This document shows, in pieces, positions 8,869 through 59,909 of a stretch of 64,000 nt of DNA. The notes under the pieces are model-generated. The model did no database searches and was not told the origin of the DNA. It worked only from the letters and a program-made list of their open reading frames with translations. The translations under genes were made by a program, and so were the position numbers. Position 1 is the first letter of the stretch, and every line of letters starts with the position of its first letter. The DNA comes from Sphagnum magellanicum. Lineage: Eukaryota > Streptophyta > Sphagnopsida > Sphagnales > Sphagnaceae. Location of the stretch: the NCBI GenBank assembly GCA_021904315.1, contig CM038917.1, forward strand, positions 6,866,041 to 6,930,040, in the 5' to 3' direction.

Positions 8869-11800
8869 TCAGAAACGGATACCCAAGCGGGGTGTGAAAG
8901 GAAGGCCTACAATGCGATCCACCCGCCTGCCATGCACACCAAGGAATGGGAACCTAGGAAGCCATGTCCAAGTGCCATCCACCAAGTGGTACATAACGGC
9001 CTCATTTCCTGAATCACTCATGAGGAAGATTCTACCACTCTGGTAGAAACAGTTCAAAGTGTGTTCTGAATTAGCTTGTTTGTTGGGAAGAAATACTTGC
9101 ACATTTGTATACATTGTGGAAACCAAGGTGGGCTCTTCTATCACTTCTTGCTGCAGTAGTCCGCTACGTACCACCTGCTCTGGTCCCGGCAGCTCATAGA
9201 TCGAAACCTCGCAGTTACAAATGTTGTCGACAAGGAAAACCCGGTCTTCGGACGCCACTAGATGGGGTAATGGCCGCCCCAGCTTCAGATCTTTCCACTG
9301 TTGGGGTTTGCGGAGGAGTGTTATCATGTTTCCCGTTTGCAGCACATATGCTACGCACACACCAGAGACGAAAGAGATCATGTAGAGCACGCCCTTGCAG
9401 TAAGCGCTCAAAACGGCTGGAACTTCAGTGTACGCCACCACTAGATTGACTCTGCGAGATGCGAATACCATCACGGGAAAGTCTTCGGTGGCCGGGACAT
9501 CCACAGGAGCACTCCATGCCTTGGTTCTGGAGTCGTAGATACGAAGCACGTTGTGGTACAGTCTCTCGGGTCTGCGTCCTGCTTCACGCTCGGGTTTCCG
9601 TTTGTGCCAGTTCGACAACCCCATAACAATGAGCTGAAAGCTTGCTGAGCTCTGCTCTCTCCAATCAGCTGGGTTGTTGTTGTTGTTGTTCCCAACAGCT
9701 AGTGGCGGCACCTCTATCATCTCATGTACAATTCCGTGGAATGTGCCATCTCTAGGAAGAACCATGAACTTCCTGTTGAACGGAGAACACATGATGTAAG
9801 CTGCGACACGCGGAGTGGTGTAGCAGATCACACCAGCACACGATCGCAGCGGCACTTTGGCATGAGGTGGTAGCCATGACAAATTGGGAGCTTGCTGCCA
9901 TGCAGTCAGACCCAGGTTGAATGTCATCCCCAGCCTGGTCCTAGGCTGCCGGCCCGTGCGGTTGGGGTAGAAAATTGGAGACTTTGCTGCCATTGTCTCT
10001 AACACTGGTGATAACATTTGGAAGTGAGAGTCCATCAACTCTCTGAAGTACTGTTTGTTCAAACAAGCACATATACTCAGATCTTTGAGCGACAGCATGC
10101 TCATGATTCTTACAACGCAGTCCTCCGAGAGCTGTGAAGCAGGAAAGCGTATCCTACGGAAGGTGTACACAGCAGTTCTTTGTCTCCGAGTCATGGTTTG
10201 CAGCTGGTGTGGAGGATCAATATCCGAACGCCTGAAATCCATCCACATAAGAAACACTTGAGGAAAGACTTCTAGGGTTTCAAACAATTGGAAGCATTAG
10301 CATCCACCACATGACTACTGCCCAAATTGCTCACTCCCACGATAAGAAAGAGATGATGCTCACATTGAGACTAGAAACTCGATTCTACGTGAAAATGTGT
10401 TTGTGGAAATTCAGGATGTTATATTGATGGGAGAGTACATGCAGTGATCATCACCTATTTACCTGCTGCTGGAGGCAATGTTGGAGGGATGCATTGGAAG
10501 GTATCTGAGATTAAGGAGTGCCTCTGCTACTTCAAGCTCGCACAACTCTATATCTAGTTTGCCCTTTCCCTTGTCAAGGTAAGACATTGGAGTTGCAGGG
10601 ATGGACGGTCTATTCTGCGAAGCTCTCAGATTGTCTACTGGCCGAACTGGTGGCCGAGGTGCAACAGACTGCGAACCTCTCGAATTGTCTACTGGCCGAG
10701 GTGGCCGGGGTACAGAAGGCAGCAGCTGGGTTGCCACGGGTGGACAGCCGGGTATAGAAGGCCGCTGCTGGGTTTGCACTGGGCGACGGACGGGTATAGA
10801 TCGCAGCTGCTGGGTTTGCACGGGTCGACGGACGGGTATAGGAGGCAGCTGCTGCGCTGGCCGGGGTGGCCGGATGGGTATAGGAGGGAGCTGATGGGTT
10901 TGCCGGGATGGCCGGAAGGGTAGAGAAGGTAGCTGATGGGTTGGCCGGGGCGGTATAGGAGGTAGCTGATGCCGGGATGGCCGGACGGGTATAGGAGGCA
11001 GCTGCTGAGATGGCCGGGGTGGTGGCCGGAGTGCAACAGGCAACTGGTCGGGCCGTTCAGTTAGCCATCTAGTCTCCTGACGTATTGGAACATTCCGAAA
11101 ACCCGTTATCGTGGTGGGTGCAACCGGTTCCGAGTTTCTGTACTGTGGATTCAGTCGACTAGATCGTGTCCGGACGCCAGTCCTGACACCAGTGGAAGCA
11201 GCAGTTGGGCGATATTGGACCCGCGGGACCACCTCATGAGCGAGTGGAGCTGAAGGACTCCTGTTCTGCTGCAGAGTCGATGATGATCGTAGCACTGGCC
11301 GATGTGCAGGAGCTGAAGGACTCCGGCTCTGCTGTAGAGTCGAAGATAACTCGCCGATGGCCATCAGCTGCATCCATCTCAGCCCACATTTCAGCTCGTA
11401 AGGCTGCATCGCCTTCAACATACTCTGCAGCCAGGAGTAGCATATGGAAATTTCGTAGTTCCGACATCTTCTTAGATCGGTTTCTGCAACTCCTGCAAAA
11501 CACAATCGATCAGGGATCTTAATTGAGGATGTATAACATACTTGCTGCAACTTGCACAACCATACAAAGCAACACATACATGACATCAGTTCATGTGATT
11601 TCCAGTTTATCGCCTCCAAACCAAATGCTTCCTGAAGACGACAAAAAAATGCACGCTCCTAGACGATGCATAGGATCCAATGCAAGGAAATGCAAGCTGG
11701 GCTATGACAAAACGGAAGGTCCCATAACTCATCGGCTAGCATTCGATCCTACAGCCCATCCATTGACATAACAAAGCATGTGCACTTCTACTGGTTACAT

Positions 11801-34440: not shown

Positions 34441-34463
34441 GCCTTTAACAAGTTGCAAAAGAC

Positions 34464-34700
34464 AATACATGGCACCCAATTGCAAGTGTAGTTAGTTACA
34501 CAATTATTAACAACTACACTTGCAATTGGGTGCCATGTATTAACAATTAACAAGTGTAGTTAGTTACACAATTATAGTTTCCAAGTGTAGTTAGTTACAC
34601 AATTATAAACTAACTACACTTGCAATACATGGCACCCAATTGCAAGTGTAGTTGTTAATAATTGTGTAACTAACATACACTACAATTGCAAGTGTAGTGT
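34464..34700. repeat. Inverted-repeat (hairpin) cluster
   Basis: A 30-bp arm (34464-34493) is perfectly complementary to 34512-34541 across an 18-base loop. Further partial copies of the unit 'acccaattgcaagtgtagtt' in both orientations fill the region to about 34700. Another reversed copy lies at 35012-35041, 14 bases before duplication copy B starts. Confidence 0.9.
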
Positions 34701-34970: not shown

Positions 34971-35811
34971 CCTAGGTCGCTAACCAGTTAACTACACAAT
35001 ACATGGCAACTAACTAACTACACTTGCAATTGGGTGCCATGTATTGTCTTGTATTGTTCTGGAGCACAAATGTTTTGAATTCCAACCGGTGTGTACAAGC
35101 TTGGATCAACACACTTGCTGCTGCGAAGCTTGATAGATTCACAGGTACATTCATGCAATCAATCACAGATGATCAGAAGAAGAAAGCCTGAACCAGCTAC
35201 AATTTACAAGGACAAGAATAATGTTCAGACGAAAGCACGCTTGCACTTTACTGCAAAATTCAAATACAGCCAAGTCTAAGTCCTTACAACAATTGCACTG
35301 CAACATGATCTCTCTATATATGTTTACAAGAAAGAATCAAAAGAAAACAGTTGAACCAGCAAATTCTATTCTCTTCTTCTTTTGTGTGTTAAGAACTGGA
35401 CATGTATGACCCAAAAGCATTCATGAAGATTCTTACACAAGTTTGAACCCTCAAACTTTTCAACACACATGCTGGCAAAAATCACTAAGAACATTCATGA
35501 AGCTCTCTCTAGAGTGTGTCAAAGTTTGACACACTCAATTTACGACAATATTACAATTTCATCCTTGAATCTCTTGCAGCTGGCAAAAGTTCAGCACACT
35601 GCAATGTTGGCTCAATTCCTAAATGAAAAGTACGAATTTTATTGCAAGGTGCAAACTTCAAAAGTTCTATGGCTGCCAATGTAAATTTTTTTTTTGAGAT
35701 CCTAGAGATGAGCAACAACAACTGATCATCTCCTCCCTTGAGAGCTGCGGACTTGCACAAAAAAAGTGTCCCAGTACTGAACACATGCAGATCACTGTAC
35801 TACAACACTGA

Positions 35812-38426
35812 TCAGAAACGGATACCCAAGCGGGGTGTGAAAGGAAGGCCTACAATGCGATCCACCCGCCTGCCATGCACACTAAGGAGTGGGAACCTAG
35901 GAAGCGATGTCCAAGTGCCATCCACCAAATGGTACATAACGGCCTCATTTCCTGAATCACTCATGAGGAAGATTCTGCCACTCTGGTAGAAACAGTTCAA
36001 AGTGTGTTCTGAATTAGCTTGTTTGTTGGGAAGAAATACTTGCACATTTGTAAACATTGTGGAAACCAAGGTGGGCTCTTCTATCACTTCTTGCTGCAGT
36101 AGTCCGCTACGTACCACCTGCTCTGGTCCCGGCAGCTCATAGATCGAGACCTCGCAGTTACGAATGTTGTCGACAAGGAAAACCCGGTCTTCGGACGCCA
36201 CTAGATGGGGTAATGGCCGCCCCAGCTTCAGATCTTTCCACTGTTGGGGTTTGCGGAGGAGTGTTATCATGTTTCCCGTTTGCAGCACATATGCTACGCA
36301 CACACCAGAGACGAAAGAGATCATGTAGAGCACGCCCTTGCAGTAAGTGCTCAAAACGGCTGGAACTTCAGTGTATGCCACCACTAGATTGACTCTGCGA
36401 GATGCGAATACCATCAGGGGAAAGTCTTCGTTGGCCGGGACATCCACAGGAGCACTCCATGCCTTGGTTCTGGAGTCGTAGATCCGAAGCACGTTTTGGT
36501 ACAGCCTCTCGGGTCTGCGTCCTGCTTCACGCTCGGGATTCCGTTTGTGCCAGTTCGACAACCCCATAACAATGAGCTGAAAGCTTGCTGAGCTCTGCTC
36601 TCTCCAATCAGCTGGGTTGTTGTTGTTGTTTTTCCCAACAGCTAGTGGCGGCACCTCTATCATCTCGTGTACAATTCCGTGGAATGTGCCATCTCTAGGA
36701 AGAACCATGAACTTCCTGTTGAACGGAGAACACATGATGTAAGCTGCTACACGCGGAGTGGTGTAGCAGATCACACCAGCACACGATCGCAGCGGCACTT
36801 TGGCATGAGGTGGTAGCCATGACAAATCGGGAGCTTGCTGCCATGCATTCAGACCCAGGTTGAATGTCATCCCCAACCTGGTCTTAGGCTGCCGGCCCGT
36901 GCGGTTGGGGTAGAAAATTGGAGACTTTGCTGCCATTGTCTCTAACACTGGTGATAACATTTGGAAGTGAGAGTCCATCAATACTCTGAAGTACTGCTTG
37001 TTCAAACAAGCACATATGCTCAGATCTTTGAGCGACAGCATGCTCATGATTCTTACAACGCAGTCCTCCGAGAGCTGTGAAGCAGGAAAGCGTATCCTAC
37101 GGAAGGTGTACACAGCAGTTCTTTGTCTCCGAATCATGGTTTGCAGCTGGTGTGGAGGATAGATTTCCGAACTCCTGAAATCCATCCACATAAGAAACAC
37201 TTGAGGAAAGACTTCTAGGGTTTCAAACAATTGAAACCATTAGCATCCACCACATGACTACTGCCCAAATTGCTCACTCCCACGACAAGAAAGAGATGCT
37301 GCTCACATTGAGACCAGAAACTCGATTCTACGTGAAAACGTGTTGTGGAAATTCAGGATATTATATTGATGGGAGAGTACATGCAGTGATCATCACCTAT
37401 TTACCTGCTGCTGGAGGCAATGTTGGAGGGATGCATTGGAAGGTATCTGAGACTAAGGAGTGCCTCTGCTACTTCAAGCTCGCACAACTCTATATCTAGT
37501 TTGCCCTTTCCCTTGTCAAGGTAAGACATTGGAGTTGCAGGGATGGACGGTCTATTCTGCGAAGCTCTCAGATTGTCTACTGGCCGAACTGGTGGCCGAG
37601 GTGCAACAGACTGCGAACCTCTCGAATTGTCTACTGGCCGAGGTGGCCGGGGTACAGAAGGCAGCAGCTGGGTTGCCACGGGTGGACGGCCGGGTATAGA
37701 AGGCCGCTGCTGGGTTTGCACTGGTCGACAGACGGGTATAGAACGCAGCTGCTGGGTTTGCACGGGTCGACGGACGGGTATACGAGGCAGCTGCTGCGCT
37801 GGCCCGGGTTGCCTGACGGGTGTAGGAGGGAGCTGATGAGTTTGCCGGGATGGCCGGACGGGTAGAGGAGGTAGGTGATGGGTTGGCCGGGGCGGTATAG
37901 GAGGTAGCTGATGGGTTAGCCGGGATGGCCGGACGGGTATAGGAGGCAGCTGCTGAGATGGCCGGGCTGGTGGCCGGAGTGCAACAGGCAACTGGTCGGG
38001 CCGTTCAGTTAGCCGTCTAGTCTCCTGACGTATTGGAACATTCCGAAAACCCGTTATCGTGGTGGATGCAACCGGCTCCGAGTTTCTGTACTGTGGATTC
38101 AGTCGACTAGATCGTGTCCGGACACCAGTCCTGAAAACGGTGGAAGCAGCAGTTGGGCGATATTGGACCCGCGGGACCACCTCATGAGCGAGTGGAGCTG
38201 AAGGACTCCTGTTCTGCTGCAGAGTCGATGATGATCGTAGCACTGGCAGATGTGCAGGAGCCGAAGGACTTCGGCTCTGCTGTAGAGTCGAAGATAATCG
38301 TGGGCGCACTCGCCGATGGGCATCAGCTGCAACCATCTCATCCCACATTTCAGCTCGTAACGCTGCATCGCCTTCAACATACTCTGCAGCCAGGAGTAGC
38401 ATATGGAAATTTCGTAGTTCCGACAT
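35812..38426 (-). CDS. Proline-rich/F-box protein, copy B
   Basis: Exons 38426-37405 and 37174-35812 on the minus strand, joined by a 230-base intron with donor CAG|GTAAAT and acceptor TTTCAG|G; the phase is exact. The model gives 794 residues. Residues 1-40 (MSELRNFHMLLLAAEYVEGD...) look helical and acidic. A Ser/Arg-rich stretch and about ten QLPPIPVRP-type repeats follow to about 280, then a conserved charged tail, an F-box at about 370-410, and a propeller-like C-terminus with strands such as LRIYDSRTKAWSAPVDVP. F-box proteins recruit substrates to SCF ubiquitin ligases; a proline-rich N-terminus of this length is unusual. Over the 459 codons shared in the F-box ORF, A and B differ at 19 residues with no indel. 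An untranslated first exon is likely, since TTTTGCAG|G lies 25 bases upstream of this ATG. The alternative upstream ATG at 39726 would be out of frame here. Confidence 0.7.
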
Positions 38427-38451
38427 CTTCTTAGATCGGTTTCTGCAACTC

Positions 38452-39695
38452 CTGCAAAACACAATCGATCAGGGATCTTAATTGAGGATGTATAACATAT
38501 TTGCTGCAACTTGCACAACCATACAAAGCAACACATACATGACATCAATTCATGTGATTTCCAGTTTATCGACTCCAAACGAAATGCTTCCGGAAGATGA
38601 CAAGAAAATGCACGCTCCTAGATGCATAGGATCCAATGCAAGGAAATACAAGCTGGACTATGACAAAACGGAAGGTCCCATCACTCATCGGCTAGCATTC
38701 GATCCTACAGCCCATCCATTTACATAGCAAAGCATGTGCACTTCTACTGGTTACATGATAACAATGAGAAAAAAAGACGCACTGCCATGAGCATATACAT
38801 AAATCACTACATATCATACCACAAACACATAGCTCACTTAAATCACTACATATCATATCACATACACATAGCTGAGGCCGAATAGGAGAACCTCTGCAAG
38901 CAACAGTACATCACTTCATGGGAAGATACATGCAGGAGCATCATACAGAAACAAGGATAGGAGAACCAACTCTGCAAGCAACAGTAGACCACTTGGGACA
39001 ATCGTACGAACATCATACAGAATAACAATAGGTCGAGAACCTCTGCAAGCAACAGACGACCACTCAAGGAAGGATACATACACGAGCATCATACACAAAG
39101 AACGATAGGAGCACCAGCTCTGCAAGCAACAGAAGAACATCAATTGCGACGATAAACACACGAGTTTCATTCACAGCAACACGAGAATGTTGCAAGCAAG
39201 CAACAATGGATCACATCATAACTTGGGATGATACATGTACATGAACATCATACAGAACAGCAACAGTAGGAGAACCTCTGCAAGCAAGCAAACAAGCAAC
39301 AGTAGATCACCTAAGGAGAAACTTGCACGAGCATAATACAGAACAACGACAACAGGAGAACCTCTGTAAGCAACCAACCAAACGACCGACCAACCAACAA
39401 ACAGTAGATCACTTGGGAAGACACTTGCACGAGCACAATGCAGAACAAAAATTAGAGAACCAGCAGCTCTGCAAGCAACAACAACAGTTAACAACAGTTT
39501 GTATAAGATGATGATCACTTGGGATACTTGGAAGACGATCATACAAAGCAGCAGCAATAACAACAGCAACACACTTGTTAGAGCGATGAGATACATGTAT
39601 GAAAAACCATAGAATGATGCACAATATAAAGAGCGAGATACATGAAGCTGCATGACGGATTAAACTTTCTCAACGCATCAAGTAAGAAAACTCAC
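38452..39695 (-). other. Leader intron of copy B with a degenerate tandem array
   Basis: Bounded by G|GTGAGTTTTC (39695) and TTTTGCAG|G (38452) on the minus strand. It holds the same 70-95-b degenerate array as copy A (about 38870-39510), with unit phrases 'cacttgggaagaca', 'agcatcatacagaaca' and 'gagaacctctgcaagcaa'. Confidence 0.5.
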
Positions 39696-39726: not shown

Positions 39727-40600
39727 CGCCTACTAATACAGAATAGATCGGAACATGGATCGAATCATTAGATGCAAGATGCAAGAAAAGAAAAGAAAAG
39801 AAAACACCAGTGTACTGAAAGGGAAACAAATCCATGCGTATGGGCGATATAAATACTCACCACTGATAGAATTCGCGATTCAACTCGCTGATGAAAGCAG
39901 AGCGATTCAACGAAAATCACTGTGATTCAACCTCGCGGGGAGCAGCAGCACGCGCGCGCGGGCTCGATCGGTTACACTAGCGGATCGACACTACAATTAG
40001 AAAGAAAGAAAGAAAAAAGAACTGCTCTGCATAAAACTGTTGGAAGCTCTGTGAGCGAATTAGGCTACTGGAATCTCAGAGCATTCTCAGAGCGGAGGAG
40101 GAGGAGGAACAGGGGACGAACATAAAACAGTTGCAAGGTCCACGCCGCGAATTAGGCTACTCGATCTGAGACCATATTCTCAAAGCTTTAGAGGAGGAGG
40201 ACGAGGAGCAGGGGACCACGACAACAGTTCTCAGGTCTAGTGCAGAGGAGGAGGAGGAGGAACAGGGGACGACTAATGAACTGTTGCTCATTGCTGCCCG
40301 AATTAACCTATTTGAATCTCTCACGAATGGCAGAGCTGCAGCGGCGGATGACGATGAGGGGAAGAAAAAGAGCAGCAGATCATCAAGATCACGATGAAAA
40401 CCCAGAAAACAAAATATCCTGCAAAACCAAAGCAATGCAAACCACAAACTGAGCTCTCAGAACACTAACAACGTCTTACGTCTTTCCAGAAAGACGAAAC
40501 GAAAATGACTACTGTGTCTGACTCCGCTCTCCCAGCTTTGGAAACTCTTAATGGGCTGTGAAGGTGTCCGTGCTGGTTGGACATCGCTTTTGTCTTATTT
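39727..40600 (-). promoter_or_regulatory. Putative 5' leader and promoter region, copy B
   Basis: Counterpart of 12774-13620. It has donor-like CAGTG|GTGAGTATTT near 39860, CCTCCT runs on the gene strand (40094-40110, 40188-40200, 40243-40260) and a TGGGCT motif near 40553. Relative to copy A it has about 30 extra bases near 40500-40540, so the promoters may not be equivalent. Confidence 0.35.
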
Positions 40601-41119
40601 TAGATAATTACCTATCTCTTGAATTAGTGAGGTGGGTTGAAGAGATCGTGGCAAAGTAAATTTTTTTAATTATATGGTTAGCTAGCAACCATGATAATTA
40701 CCCATGATCAGCTATGATAATTAACCATGCTAGGACAAATTTCAGCCATGTTATGATCAATTTTCGCCATGGTATGATATTAATTAGCCATGCTAATTTC
40801 AATTTTAGTCATATTTCATTCCATGTATTCATGTAATCTGTGTGTGATGATGTAACTCTATGATCCATTCTCTCCATTTTTTTCACCTCATCACCTAGCT
40901 TGAATCATTAAGATCACAGTGCGGAATTTGGTAATTTGCAATTCAAAACTACTACTCCTCCTCCAAGCCCTGAAATCCTCTAGTGGTCAATGTAATTTGT
41001 TAATCATGCTCAAGTGTACAAAATATGTGAATAATTAAATACTTTGATCATGTAATACAAATCTATTTGAATATATTATGTGTTGCTCATATATGTGTGT
41101 ACATAATTATGTATGTGAA

Positions 41120-44910: not shown

Positions 44911-45594
44911 GTGAAGGTTGAAAGAGGAGGACTTATAAGACAGGTTCCCAAGGTGGAAACTTCTTTGCCTTTCATCCAATGGATGGTGCACTGGAGGGTG
45001 CTAGGTTGGTGTGCTCATCACGAAACCTTTCATTTTAAAATCGAATGATTGTTTCTCAAGAGAGATGATAATATGTGATTGAGGACCACCAACAAAAAAA
45101 ATTTGTAGCTCGACCAAGGTCTTGCTAAATCTACATTTCCAAGTGCAACAATCATTATAACTATACCAATAAAATGTGTGCACCCACACATCTAGTTGCA
45201 ACACTTGTCTTCATACAACACGCAAGCAAGAAACAAGACAAAAATTGGTGGTCAATGTACACATTTTGTGGCCATGTGAGAAGGTACTCAATAATAATTA
45301 AAATTGACACTCCCTGGAGGGAAAACTTGGGAAACCTATGCTGAAAAATGGTTGTACTTACATAAGGAAAACTAAAAGGGGATTGTAGTACCAATATGTC
45401 TATGCTTTCTTCCCATAGTGAAACTTGTATTTTCACACAGTTTTGTCCCATTGTCAATCAAGCAGCGCCTCGCAGAATGGCGCTGCCCCTTATGGAAAGT
45501 TCAAACCAACACCAGTCAAGATACCGGGCATTCCATGAAGTTCCCAAAAAATAACTCATAATCACTCTAGGTAAAAACACCCTGTGAACCTCAA
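44911..45594. other. Intergenic DNA, no gene seen
   Basis: The overlapping short minus-strand ORFs have no recognised motif. Confidence 0.4.
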
Positions 45595-46376
45595 AATGTG
45601 GACCAAATGAAACCTACATTGTTCAGGAATTTCTACGAGTAAATTTTATGGTTGCAAAGGGGAAATTCGAAGATTTTCTAGATGGTCCCAAAAAATGAAC
45701 CCATGGTTCACACTAAAGCCAAGATGCTCATTCAACAAAATGTGGGACCAAATGAAACCTACATTGTTTTGGAGTCTTCACTTCTAAATTTTATGTTTGC
45801 ATAAGGGAAATTCAAAGATTTTCTAGGTGGTCCCAAAAAATGAACTCATAGTTCACACTAAAGCCAAGATGCTCATTCCTCATAATGTGGGACCCAATGA
45901 AACTTACATTGTTTTGGAGTCTTCACTTCTAAATTTTATGTTTGCATAAGGGAAATTCAAAGATTTTCTAGGTGGTCCCAAAAAATGAACTCATAGTTCA
46001 CACTAAAGCCAAGATGCTCATTCCTCGTAATGTGGGACCGAATGAAACTTACATTGTTTTGGAGTCTTCACTTCTAAATTTTATGTTTGCATAAGGGAAA
46101 TTCAAAGATTTTCTAGGTGGTCCCAAAAAATGAACTCATAGTTCACACTAAAGCCAAGATGCTCATTCCTCATAATGTGGGACCCAATGAAACTTACATT
46201 GTTTTGGAGTCTTCACTTCTAAATTTTATGTTTGCATAGGGGAAATTCAAAGATTTTCTAGGTGAACTCATGGTTCACACTAAAGCCAAGATGCTCATTC
46301 CTCAAAATGTGGGACCAAATGACACCTATATTGTTTTGGAGTCTTTACTTCTAAATTTCATGTTTGCATAGGGGAA
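45595..46376. repeat. 145-bp tandem array, about five units
   Basis: The phrase 'agattttctaggtggtccc' or a close variant starts at 45671, 45816, 45961, 46106 and 46251, exactly 145 bases apart. The middle units are nearly identical; the outer ones diverge and the last has an internal deletion after 46260. This is a minisatellite in non-coding DNA. Confidence 0.95.
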
Positions 46377-46560
46377 ATTCAAGATTTCCTAAGTGTCCCA
46401 CAGGGAATGAGAGAATGGAGTCTAAATTTCATGTTTGCATAATGGAAATTCAAGATTTCCTAAGTGTCCCACAGGGAATGAGAGAATGGAGTCTAAATTT
46501 CATGTTTGCATAATGGAAATTCAAGATTTCCTAGGTGTCCCACAGGGAATGAGAGAAAGA
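46377..46560. repeat. 71-bp tandem array, three units
   Basis: 'aagatttcctaagtgtccca' starts at 46381, 46452 and 46523. The 71-base unit is a shortened derivative of the 145-bp unit: it keeps 'catgtttgcata.tggaaattcaa' and gains 'cagggaatgagagaatgga'. Confidence 0.95.
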
Positions 46561-48047: not shown

Positions 48048-51000
48048 CTACTTAATATACACTATTGTACAACCTGGGTTCATGATACTCTCTTGCTCAA
48101 ATTTGGCCACATATGGATGCTTCTTCAGCACTTTCCACACTGCCTCTTTCACTGCACCTGTTCCCATGCCATGCACAACAAAAAGCACCGACTGGGGAGC
48201 TCGACTTGCCAGTGCTCTGTCCAACTCCTGTAAAGATTCCTCCACTCGACAACCACGCAAATCCAAAGTATTCCTAGAAGTCTGTACTGCAACCTCGTAT
48301 TTAGGCTCTGCTGCTGGAATCTCAGGCTGCTTTGACTGAATTGGCTTAACCAGCTGCTGATAGTGGGAGAAGAAAATTGAAGTTAGTGCAGCTCATAGAT
48401 CTGCTTGTCACTGCAAAAAGACTTTGATCATACTAGATCACACAGCACATGAAGCCCGACATGATCCTAGGGATGCCCAATCTTTGTTTTATCTCCTCAA
48501 GTTAATCAGGAGCTGCATCAAGATGCATCAAAATGCAATTGAAGGAGAAAGGAACTGCAGCTCACTAAACAAATCTAAATAAGTGCCCTGGCTCTTTCTT
48601 TTTTGGGTTGTATACATGTTACCCTTTTGGGTAGCCTCCTTTAGAATGATAAAAATTCTCTCTTTTTCTTAAGTCAACTCCCTGGAATCATCATCATAAG
48701 AATTACAACATTTTTTCTGGCAAGAACCTAGTAAATAACAGTGGACAGATATGTAAGAAAGCATATGCATGAAGTAGATTTACTTGTATTGATGTTCTCA
48801 CACTCCTTTCTCCTGAAGCTCCAGTACTCCCTCTTGTTATGATTTCACTAGCCTTCACTTTCATCTTCAGAGCACCAAGTTGCACAGTCAGGTACTCACT
48901 GTCACCCTGTGGTGGCTCCACAACAGTTGCTGGCAGTTTTCCAAGCCGTCGAATTATGACCTTGTCACCCACAGCAAGAACTCCCTTAGTGCCATCTGAG
49001 TCATTTTTTTGCAGAAATGGCATATCCACCTCCCCATGCTTTGGATTGTACTCTTCAGCAATTGCTGCTATGGCAGCTTGAGCATCCCGCATGGACAATG
49101 GATTCTCTTTCAAGCCACTCTCTTGTACCAATTCTTGGAATCCGGTCAGTACTTGCTCCATTCTTGCATTTGCTTCCATGATGCTTCTGTCAACTTCCTC
49201 TTCTTGTAAATGTCGAAGTTTGGCCTCATGCTTTGCCAAATTATGCACCTCAGCTTGAAGCTAACAGACCACAGCAAGCCTATGTCAGCCCTCAACATCA
49301 AGGAGAACAACTACAAGACTGGAAGATCAACCTCGATTATATGTTCTGTAACCAGTTTTCCCCAGACAAAACAATAGTGCGACAAGACATCTGTAAACTT
49401 TTGATGAGCTCACCTCATCATGTAGCTTTGTGATGGCTGCAAGAGCTACACCTGCAGCTTGGGCACACTCACGCTGTTCATCTCGTTGCTTTACAAGGGG
49501 CACCATCAGCTCACTATTCCTTTCACCAAAAGTTGCAGGAACCAGCTTTGTTACAAGTTCCTGGGCACGTGTCAGTACTTTTAGGTCAAACCCAAGAGAT
49601 GCTGCAATATCAAGAGCATTTGATTGCCCCGCAACCCCCCAAAGCACACGGTAAGTTGGTGCAATGTTTTGATGTCAAACTCGACTGAAGCATTCTCAAA
49701 TTGTGGATCTTGGTCTTTCAATCTGCGGAGCTCAGCACTGTGGGTTGTGGCAAGGGTTAACTGTACTGACAATGCTAAGCTGCCAAGAACTGCCGTCGCA
49801 AGAGCTGCACCTTCTGATGGGTCAGTCCCACCACCAACCTCATCAAGGAGAACCAACGATTTCTTGGTGCCTGCTTCCAGTATTTCACATACTCATCAGA
49901 TGTGACCACTGAAAGTTGATAAACTGCGCTCCAGCGACTGCAAAAGAATTTTCCTTCATCATCAATTTGCATAAAACAACAAAGCCAGCCGTTTGCAAAG
50001 CTGCATATGAAATCTGCAGAGCTGTTGCAAATGGCTGGAACATACTTCCTCTAGTACCTACAGCCCATAAGCTTTTTTACAGTGTCCAGCACATCCCAGC
50101 TCACTAAATTTTTAAAAAACAACCAAAGATTGATGCCAGAGTTTCAAACATCACCTGGTCATCACCAATGTCTGCCAGGACTCGGTCAAACCAGGGCAAC
50201 TGCAGCTGACCCACAGCAGGTACAAATAGCCCTGCTTTCGCCATTAACACAATCACACCCAAAGTCTTCAATGTTGCTGTCTTTCCCCCCGTGTTAGGAC
50301 CTGTGATTGTAACAACCTTGACAGACTCACAAATCTTGATATCAATTGGGACTGGCAATGTAGTCTCAATGAAACCAAAGCTTGAGGCATTTCCAGTGGA
50401 AATGCTTGAGGAGGAGGATCCTGTATTGATTTTGTTCTGGTGGATCACTCCATACCACTGAGTATTCAATGATGCTGAGAGTGCAGTTCCCAATAAAAGT
50501 GGGTGCCTAGCACCCTCAATGTCCACCATCAATTGATCCATATAGGGATTTTTGTGAACAAAGGCCATATCATTTTCACAAAAGACAGGACGAACTGCAT
50601 TTAGCCACATGGCATACCCTGCTCTTGCACATGCAAGATCAAGAGCAGTAACTCGCTGCAACAAATCTATCATGCTTTCAGACACATCAATTAGTGCGAA
50701 AGTCAAGCTTTGTAAAACAGCTGTTTCTTCAGCTTGCTCAGCTGCAGCAAGTCGTATCTCCTCATTGTTGAACTCCAATGCAGGCTCTGGCTCCATGAAC
50801 AGAGTGGCCCCTGAGTTACTGACATCCAGTGTAACTCCCCCAGATAGCAGAATCGGTTGCTGACAAAGTCGACACAGCATTGCTGTGTTTTGACTTGCTT
50901 GCTTGTGTCAAGTACAGTGGAGAAGGAGCAATCCAAGCATTGTTCAATCGATGCCTCCAACTCCACACATAAACTAGAACCAACCATGATTGACTGCAAT

Positions 51001-57317: not shown

Positions 57318-59909
57318 ATGATGGAGTCCCCTGCCCCATCGATCAACATCTCAGCTTCGGCCAATGATGGAGAGGTCGACGAGGCGCCTCATGAACCGCT
57401 TGACTCGCGGCTTGTGCCGATCAACGCTAACAAAACATTGCCGGTGTGGCAGTACTTCACCATGGTCAAGGACGGGCCAATCATGCGCAACAAGATCCAA
57501 TATGTTTATTGTTGCTTATTGTGCCTGAAGAAGTGCCCACACAAGTTCCTGGACAGCTTGGTTGCCATCTACAATGACACAACTGGCAATGCTCACAAAC
57601 ACATCGCTTCTAAGCACCCGAGCTTGCATCTGGCCCGCAAGCACCAGTCGCTTGAACCCAAACAACTGATATCAATTTCAACTTCTACATCCGTGAGCAC
57701 CAACAACATTCGCGCCTTCATCAAGAATGGCAATGATGCTGTCATCGAGCGCATTCATGCACTTGTTGCATGGCTGGTCGTCAACTGCAAGGCGCCGCTA
57801 TCGCTTGCCACTGATGTCAACCTGAATGAGGTCATCCAGGCAGTGTCATACCTAAAGCCAGGGTCATATGTTTCGATGACACCCGGTAAGATCAATCGCG
57901 CGCTCATCTCCATGTTTTCCAAGTTCACTGTGTGTTAAGGCGCTTATTGTCAAGGCGTGCGCAATGTACATGCCAACCGGCTATGACGAGCTTGTCGACG
58001 AGTATGCTGGTTCCAGCTATGGCTGGCTTGTGGTCTGCCATGATGGCTGGGACTCCATGATCAAGCAGTTCTTCAACATCTCAGTGTACTGGATCGACCT
58101 ATAGTCGTGGATCCGGTACAAACTGGCGTTCGGCCTGGCTATGCCAGACGGGCACAATGCCCAAGCCTGCAACGATGCGGCCATGGCTGTCCTAAAGCGC
58201 TACGGCATCCGCCATAGCGACATCATCTTGTCGATCAACGACACAACGAACACGTCCCTCGCAACCAATCGACTAATTGTCAGCACAGATGGCACTTGCA
58301 ACATGCATTTGGCAAACTTGGTTGCGACCATGCGACTGGGAAGCGAAAAAGGACAGTTAACAAGGAGATTGTCGACTCATTCAAAGAATGCGAGGACCTG
58401 CACCTGGCCGTGCGTCGAATGATCGGGTATGTTTGGAACAAAAAGGTCAAGTCGCACAAAATCAACTATGAAAAACACAACGAACAGATCGGCTACAATG
58501 TGATTAAGGTTGGCATCGATAATGACACACGCATTTCAGGCTACGAGCGCATGTACTAATAGGCGTTACGATGCAAGTGGACACTGCACCAATATTTTGC
58601 TCACGAGAAGTCGTTGGTGTGCAACGCCTACGAGCTATCAGACGAACGTTGGTAGTCCGTGGCTGAGGTCGAAGCCATCATACGATCAGTTTGCACCCTA
58701 TCATTCACGACACAGATCAACTCGCGACTAGTTGCTAGCGCTAGCTGGCCCAATATTGTTAAGACCAAGACTGCCGTTAGGCAAATGACTTACTCGGTCG
58801 TCAACATCATGCCATCATCCCGTTCTGGTGAGCAGTCAGACGAGGAGGACGGCTACGGTGGCGATGGCCGATGGGATGGCAAAACACGATGGGACCACTT
58901 GCCCAAGGTCAAGGTCAGAGTTGAACAATTGGGTGTGATCGGCAGCAAGCTGCAGGATCGCATCCAGAAAGAGTTGGACTCATATTTCCCATTCCTTAGC
59001 GATTAGCAACTGGTGGCCATGATATGCGACCCGATCATGCTAACACTGGCCTTGCCATGGCTATGTGCAACCGGGTACAAGGACAATGTTGACAATGCCA
59101 AGGAGCTTGTCAAGTCTGCTCTTGTTGATGAGGCCACACGCTCATTCCGACCACCCGAGCCCGACGCGATATGTAATGTGCCGCTCGACAATGATGACAT
59201 TGATGTACAAGTTTGTGACGATGACGATGTGTTCGGCATGGTCAATGTTGCTTCACTTAGCCAGGACATTGAAAGTAGAGCAAGTGCTACTCTCAACACA
59301 ACGACTCCAAGTGATTTGGCGAACGAAGCCTTCAAGGAGTGGATCTTGCTAAAGGTGGATTGGTTAGCATGGCTTTTGAACGAACAAAAGTTAGATGAGA
59401 TCGACAAGAGCAAGGTCCGCTCAGGCAACTGGATCTACGTTAGCGAGGTCGTCGATGTGTCATAGTGGTGGCGCAAAAACGGTGTGCATCACCGATTCGC
59501 AAAGCGCATCATAGCGCGACACCTTGGCGCACCTGATTCCAACGGCTTGCAGGAACGCATGTTCTCGGTCTGTAAGCACATTGACAATGCGCTTCAGCAG
59601 AACCTGGGCAACGCCAAGTTTGAGATGTTGTTGATGTTAGCATTCAACAAGGCATTTATCAAAGACATGGAAAGCAAAGACCTATTCACGGTCGACAACT
59701 TGATTACATCATTGAAGTCAGCAACAGATGCAACTAAGGCGGCTCCAAACATCATCAAATACTTTGATCTTGATGGTGATGTCGAAGATGACGAAACAGA
59801 CGAAGGCATGGAGATAGTAGCGATGTTGAAATCAACAGCTTGTGACATCCAACAACAACACAATGCGAATGGGTCTGCCATCGCTCAGAAGAGGGCTCGC
59901 AATGAGTAA
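57318..59909 (+). pseudogene. hAT transposase, BED zinc finger to hATC domain, disabled
   Basis: The ATG at 57318 opens a BED-type zinc finger (CCLLC ... HKHIASKH), then a linker. The catalytic region includes VCHDGWDSM (first Asp) and DGTCNMHLANL (the CxxH motif). It ends with the C-terminal hATC dimerisation block WWRKNGVHHRFAKR ... SNGLQERMFSVC, and a stop at 59909. Intact length would be about 860 residues. Lesions: a frame change near 57935 and a compensating one near 58322, plus in-frame stops TAG 58102, TAA 58557, TAG 58560, TAG 58653, TAG 59004 and TAG 59463. The frame is otherwise open from 58296 to the end, so this was a working transposase until recently. The intact ends could still be moved by a related transposase elsewhere. 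Confidence 0.9.

Follow-up and report, generated by a model that had tools for sequence, protein, structure and literature searches.

A proline-rich frame and an F-box frame are very probably two coding exons of one recently duplicated gene in Sphagnum magellanicum

Two neighboring open reading frames lie on the minus strand of the 64,000-nucleotide stretch of the Sphagnum magellanicum genome that we analyzed (C11:6866041-6930040, hereafter the window), the first proline-rich and the second F-box-like, which raises the question of whether they are two genes or one. An earlier note on this DNA had read them as a single gene, and the sequence supports this, since joining the frames restores an Arg codon and the F-box frame. 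Judged by their splice sites and frames, these two apparently separate frames very probably belong to a single plant F-box gene, each supplying one of its two coding exons. The window holds two copies, A and B, organized as follows.

37405..38426, minus strand: copy B coding exon 1, 1022 nt, 341 codons including the Arg codon split by the intron; leader, 14-residue proline-rich units and tail
37175..37404, minus strand: copy B intron, 230 nt, GTAAATAG...TTATGTGGATGGATTTCAG
35812..37174, minus strand: copy B coding exon 2, F-box followed by a C-terminal domain (possibly a propeller), ending in TGA
10463..11467, minus strand: copy A exon 1, with an 11-nt deletion near 11346-11350
10232..10462, minus strand: copy A intron, 231 nt
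8869..10231, minus strand: copy A exon 2, open F-box exon, its protein 96% identical to that of copy B

As for the splice sites, the consensus donor claimed at the end of the proline-rich frame (CAG/GTAAATAG, the slash marking the splice boundary) and the TTTCAG/G claimed near the start of the F-box frame were both confirmed on the minus strand. Removal of 37404-37175 (230 nt) in copy B or of 10462-10232 (231 nt) in copy A unites AG with G as an Arg codon and leaves the F-box frame intact. A GT-AG intron and a preserved frame, as in a spliced gene with two coding exons, are thus both present. The claim that the join holds in both copies, with introns of 231 and 230 nt, stands for the join and the frame, but the first ATG of copy A misses the proline-repeat frame because of the 11-nt deletion near the start of its exon 1. 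Among the 284 frame-compatible GT-AG introns of copy B (donors from 300 nt past the first ATG, acceptors up to 36900), the donor CAG/GTAAAT and acceptor TTTCAG/G score best, 3.5 bits ahead of a runner-up sharing the same donor, on an approximate plant splice-site matrix that is not moss-specific. On this matrix, the donor ranks within the best 4 of the 3,706 GTs and the acceptor within the best 13 of the 3,556 AGs on the minus strand of the window, copies A and B both being counted. An equally good frame-restoring intron appeared in none of 300 dinucleotide shuffles of 37420-37150. Chance splice sites are therefore rejected on site strength, frame match, and the shuffle test. The open frame of exon 1, at 340 codons, is also longer than in dinucleotide shuffles (mean 118, maximum 261, n = 500), a model that does not encompass its tandem array. 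In practice, annotation should join the two frames.

That the gene encodes an F-box protein is supported by comparison with a distant relative on contig C3. Taken alone, the exon 2 protein matches the F-box profile over residues 32-61 below threshold (16.2 bits against a Pfam cut-off of 20.5, E about 0.01), while the C3 relative has an F-box at E 1.9e-9 and aligns with the window protein in a pairwise comparison (E 5e-12) that spans the F-box and extends beyond it. It is thus via this relative that the window protein falls among F-box proteins by sequence. A profile built from four copies of the gene (see below) and the C3 relative gave 11 matches at E<=1 in the PDB, all weak (E 0.047-0.93), of which ten are F-box chains, among them 1fs1_A, which is otherwise labeled and was counted as the F-box of SKP2, and the remaining one is not. 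The earlier description of the product as an F-box/propeller protein is therefore upheld for the F-box, by profile and relative, whereas no propeller was detected in the window protein, the part after the F-box giving no Pfam match at E<=10. In the C3 relative, a KIB1-4 propeller matches at 3e-4, below the cut-off, and kelch is likewise below the cut-off. We infer only from the sub-threshold KIB1-4 match of this relative that the C-terminal domain may be a propeller. The C3 protein begins about 12 residues before its own F-box and has no proline exon in its ORF.

Exon 1 is made up of a leader of about 140 residues, a series of repeats, and a tail, and has no match in Pfam. Its core (residues 141-310) is 25.9% proline and 13.5% Arg. 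The repeats had been described as about ten nonapeptide-like units. Instead, Tandem Repeats Finder returned a 42-nt period in 7.5 copies with 77% matches, corresponding to a 14-residue unit of which RPSRQTHQLPPTPV is an example.

37650..37965, minus strand: tandem array, 42-nt (14-residue) unit, about 7.5 copies, rich in PxxPxR

The array repeats PxxPx[RK], the class II SH3-ligand pattern. This pattern occurs nine times in copy B and nine times in copy C, against shuffled means of 1.65 and 1.58, and none of 2000 shuffles reached nine in either case; the excess is over composition, with tandem repetition uncontrolled. Since the shuffle ignores tandem structure, the nine sites are largely one unit repeated. 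Class I SH3 patterns are rarer than in shuffles (1 vs 2.76). Of the WW-ligand motifs, PPxY is absent from exon 1, and PPLP occurs once each in B and C, which is not above chance (456 and 494 of 2000 shuffles reach it). Consequently, of the SH3/WW-type partners suggested previously, the SH3 type is plausible and the WW type is disfavored. One protein encoded in the genome combines an SH3 domain over the cut-off with a BAR match just under it (27.9 of 28.5 bits) and resembles plant SH3P proteins. SH3P proteins are reported to occur in mosses, with five in Sphagnum fallax, and Arabidopsis SH3P2 to have a role in cell plate assembly (PMC6888108).

A search of the genome (438,994,042 bases, 31 contigs) with exon 2 revealed four copies with 95-100% identity and no internal stop: A and B in the window, and two others.

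C11:6765008-6766366: copy C exon 2
C4:2735816-2737174: copy D exon 2

Further matches in this search were a degenerate relic on C18, which is 65% identical and has one stop, and the distant C3 relative (27%). All four copies keep the intron and an open F-box exon, and intron matches in the genome are confined to them (97-100%). Strong relatives of exon 1 are likewise limited in the genome to the four copies and two places on C13, with one weak match on C4 (E 4e-4). Any two copies differ by 1.8-4.0% over exon 1 and 0.9-2.7% over exon 2; the intron differs by 1.3-3.1% and the 248 nt upstream by 0-4.0%. Because the likeness is about the same for the exons, the intron, and the near flanks, intron conservation is useless as a discriminator. 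Copies A and B are 96% alike over 5.5 kb, and the four are about 95-97% alike over kilobases; by these measures they are recent segmental duplicates, and their agreement is therefore not independent evidence for the join. The join was assembled directly for A and B, and read for C and D from an alignment that keeps donor and acceptor. Carriage by a transposon was rejected, the flanks of A, C, and D still matching one another beyond 35056 (A-C 96%, A-D 93%, about 2 kb). Since only B diverges there, it is B that was rearranged downstream, and the copies are segmental duplications. The likeness between B and C, which copy B alone loses at window position 35056, resumes about 0.56 kb on in B and about 9.4 kb on in C, and a 40-nt exact inverted repeat lies near this break (34459-34498 and 35011-35050).

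Elsewhere, the window contains a tandem array of ~145-nt blocks that are roughly 82-98% alike (45589-46557), and pieces of a MutS2-type gene, apparently split by introns, on the minus strand at 48703-50880 (an ORF with an MSSS domain at 48703-49248 and one with MutS domain V at 50104-50880). In 57318-59909 on the plus strand, an ORF matches a BED zinc finger weakly, below the cut-off (E 0.044), and further ORFs come after it; this may be what is left of a hAT-type transposon.

Two features lie upstream of the first ATG of copy B.

38427..38451, minus strand: possible 5' end of exon 1, at a strong acceptor TTTTGCAG/GAG, score 5.8
40403..40666, minus strand: upstream block, putatively a promoter or 5' leader, present as well next to the degenerate F-box relics of C18 and C5

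With this acceptor 25 nt upstream of the first ATG, the exon would begin at 38451; a leader intron is therefore likely, which leaves the N-terminus uncertain. The supposed leader intron (38452-39600, minus strand) contains several repeated blocks with CTGTTGCTTGCAGAG or close forms, which amount to serial acceptor-like sites. Identity of the upstream block varies between copies, from 100% in C through 89% in D to 75%, over part of the block, in A. Both relics carry a block matching 40629-40403 (to 40422 on C5), followed on C18 by an intron-end remnant, GTGGATTTCAG/GAGTTCAGA, with an identical reading on C5, and then by exon 2 fragments, those of C18 being larger than those of C5, in the same order as in the gene. 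The C5 stretch (C5:398801-404800) is a second degenerate F-box gene relic, with the upstream block and remnants of the start of exon 2. This order, from upstream block to exon 2, fits one transcription unit that would start near 40.5 kb. No exon 1 match was found in either relic stretch; the relics are rearranged, with inverted pieces, and are therefore silent on whether the ancestor lacked the proline exon.

The two C13 places are neighboring NLR-type genes, L033 (C13:13623349-13625037) and L034 (C13:13597971-13599629), both of which carry, close to the C-terminus, an inserted piece of the proline-rich exon.

37418..37649, minus strand: exon 1 tail segment, with a 97.4% identical copy near the C-terminus of an NLR gene on C13

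L034 carries these 232 nt of exon 1 (37649-37418) at 97.4%, and L033 carries 156 nt at 94.9%. L033 has an NB-ARC domain (8.2e-40) and LRRs, and L034 can be called an NLR from an 86% match. The insert in L034 is 236 nt long, flanked by TATCC on both sides as against a single TATCC in L035, and has a TAG near its start. That in L033 is 153 nt long and keeps the NLR frame to its normal end. Among the matches listed (77 of 1,394 candidates scored), 20 extend over the query from residue 1 or 2 as far as residue 501 or further, and two of these 20 span the insert. Of the other 18, the two that were inspected at the site, the paralogues L035 and L036, run straight through it with no insert; the rest include L038 as well as C3:24825221 and C7:20666551, which reach 16 and 8 residues past 501. 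On the basis of these rows we rejected an origin of exon 1 from an NLR gene. The L034 piece carries the one state peculiar to copy B. Copying from the F-box exon into the NLR genes is most likely the direction, given that L035 and L036 are without the insert, that TATCC flanks it in L034, and that L034 shares the copy B state. The exon piece in an NLR is a clear-cut example of coding sequence transferred from one fast-evolving gene family of plants to another. It would be far-fetched to go further and propose that a young, lineage-specific array of SH3 ligands on an F-box receptor tethers an SCF ligase to an SH3 scaffold, a piece of the exon having then been copied into an NLR immune receptor, in frame in one NLR, so that the receptor bears part of the ligase as bait.

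Exon 2 is free of stops and indels in all four copies. Exon 1 is intact in B (341 codons) and in C (330 codons, with a 33-nt in-frame deletion). Copy A has 11-nt and 6-nt deletions in exon 1, and in copy D codon 88 is a stop and two deletions have removed 1 nt and 12 nt; of the five exon 1 indels among the copies, three keep the frame. Taking the majority base as reference, we counted 19 synonymous and 38 nonsynonymous changes and one stop in exon 1, and 18, 32, and none in exon 2. Against the synonymous counts expected in the absence of constraint, purifying selection since duplication is not significant in exon 1 (19 vs 16.3, P=0.25) or in exon 2 (18 vs 13.7, P=0.11), the changes being few and the power low. 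Comparison of exon 2 with the C18 relic gives 18 synonymous changes vs 13.3 expected (P=0.08) and, in another stretch, 8 vs 6.5 (P=0.31). Selection, significant in neither exon, was consequently discarded as proof of coding. Functional maintenance of the proline-rich exon is unsupported, the exon being broken in two of four copies and constraint not significant. Copies A and D are probably decaying, or make the short F-box form only.

Together, these findings make it reasonably probable that the locus is a single spliced gene for an SCF receptor with an SH3-docking arm, in four recent copies of which A and D are probably decaying. Copies B and C would encode the substrate-receptor subunit of an SCF ubiquitin ligase, with a length of 794 residues in B; by analogy with established F-box biology, the F-box would bind SKP1 and the C-terminal domain, probably a propeller, would capture the substrate. 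The N-terminal arm, with about seven 14-residue units, would present repeated PxxPxR sites to an SH3 protein, and this docking would place the ligase at a membrane or cell-plate scaffold. Recruitment of an SH3 protein by the array is a guess based on the motif and on precedent. Should B and C be expressed, the repeat exon would add a candidate docking arm to a ubiquitin-ligase receptor, and the family, with this exon whole in two copies and disrupted in the other two, would offer a natural comparison; otherwise this is an ordinary duplicated F-box gene.

The readings that we weighed against this one are not mutually exclusive, since two of them, drift and a dispensable leader, overlap with the splice reading. 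It is possible, although we hold it to be a minority prospect, that the whole family is drifting, i.e., that it was recently duplicated, is weakly or not expressed under relaxed selection, and is without present function. This is compatible with the splice join and denies function. Neither exon is distinguishable from neutral substitution, two frameshifts and one stop have accumulated across the four copies, degenerate relics exist on C18 and C5, and relaxed selection and pseudogenes are reported to be enriched among F-box genes specific to particular plant lineages (PMC3030570). However, exon 2 is clean in all four copies and its synonymous changes lie slightly above expectation, also against the C18 relic, while the selection tests, with so few changes, have little power. 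An unlikely alternative accepts one transcription unit but takes the working product to be a short F-box protein, started within exon 2 or at an ATG just 5' of the acceptor, with the proline exon as a dispensable or disappearing leader. An ATG in the exon 2 frame is present at the intron end of all four copies (in copy B, ATGTGGATG is in the exon 2 frame immediately 5' of the acceptor), a Met common to the four lies at exon 2 residue 13, upstream of the F-box, and the C3 relative has just such a short start; the contrast between an exon 2 open in four copies and an exon 1 broken in two points the same way. Nevertheless, exon 1 remains open over its full length in B and C, most of its indels are multiples of three, and translation of the spliced RNA is expected from the exon 1 ATG. 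It is very unlikely that the arm docks the proteasome, as in FBXO7, instead of an SH3 protein: the proline content of the exon 1 core is close to the 27% reported for the FBXO7 region that binds the 20S core (PMC13252361), but the arm lies on the opposite side of the F-box, is Arg-rich as against Gly-rich in FBXO7, and is built of tandem PxxPxR units. Finally, two separate neighboring genes with splice-like ends arising by chance, a reading favored by each frame being open alone, are highly improbable in view of splice-site strength, frame agreement, and the shuffle test.

How does the single spliced SCF-receptor gene that we favor compare with known systems? Lineage-specific F-box genes of plants are reported to undergo rapid birth, decay, and relaxed selection (PMC3030570), and the family in the window fits this birth-and-decay picture. 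Among the reports listed in our literature searches, judged by titles and abstract openings, we recognized none on a plant protein that combines a proline-rich arm with an F-box. Plant F-box/kelch proteins and those of the KIB1-4 type likewise carry the F-box early in their folded part, together with a long C-terminal domain; they differ in their propeller, a match for which is absent from the window protein, and the ORF of the C3 relative is without the proline exon. Mammalian NCCRP1 also has a proline-rich N-terminus, of about 60 residues, and is related to the F-box family, but has no F-box pattern match and carries a lectin-type FBA domain (PMC3210139). FBXO7 and PI31 offer a proline-rich arm of similar proline content, in FBXO7 on an F-box protein, although that arm lies at the C-terminus, is rich in Gly, and binds the 20S core (PMC13252361). 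The architecture, which the earlier note had not recognized, resembles in layout that of human FBXL16, which is described as having a proline-rich domain N-terminal to the F-box, followed by LRRs (PMC10920083). FBXL16 is an animal protein with C-terminal LRRs, unlike the window protein, and the likeness is one of described layout; nevertheless, in both proteins a proline-rich arm precedes the F-box, and the architecture therefore has a precedent.
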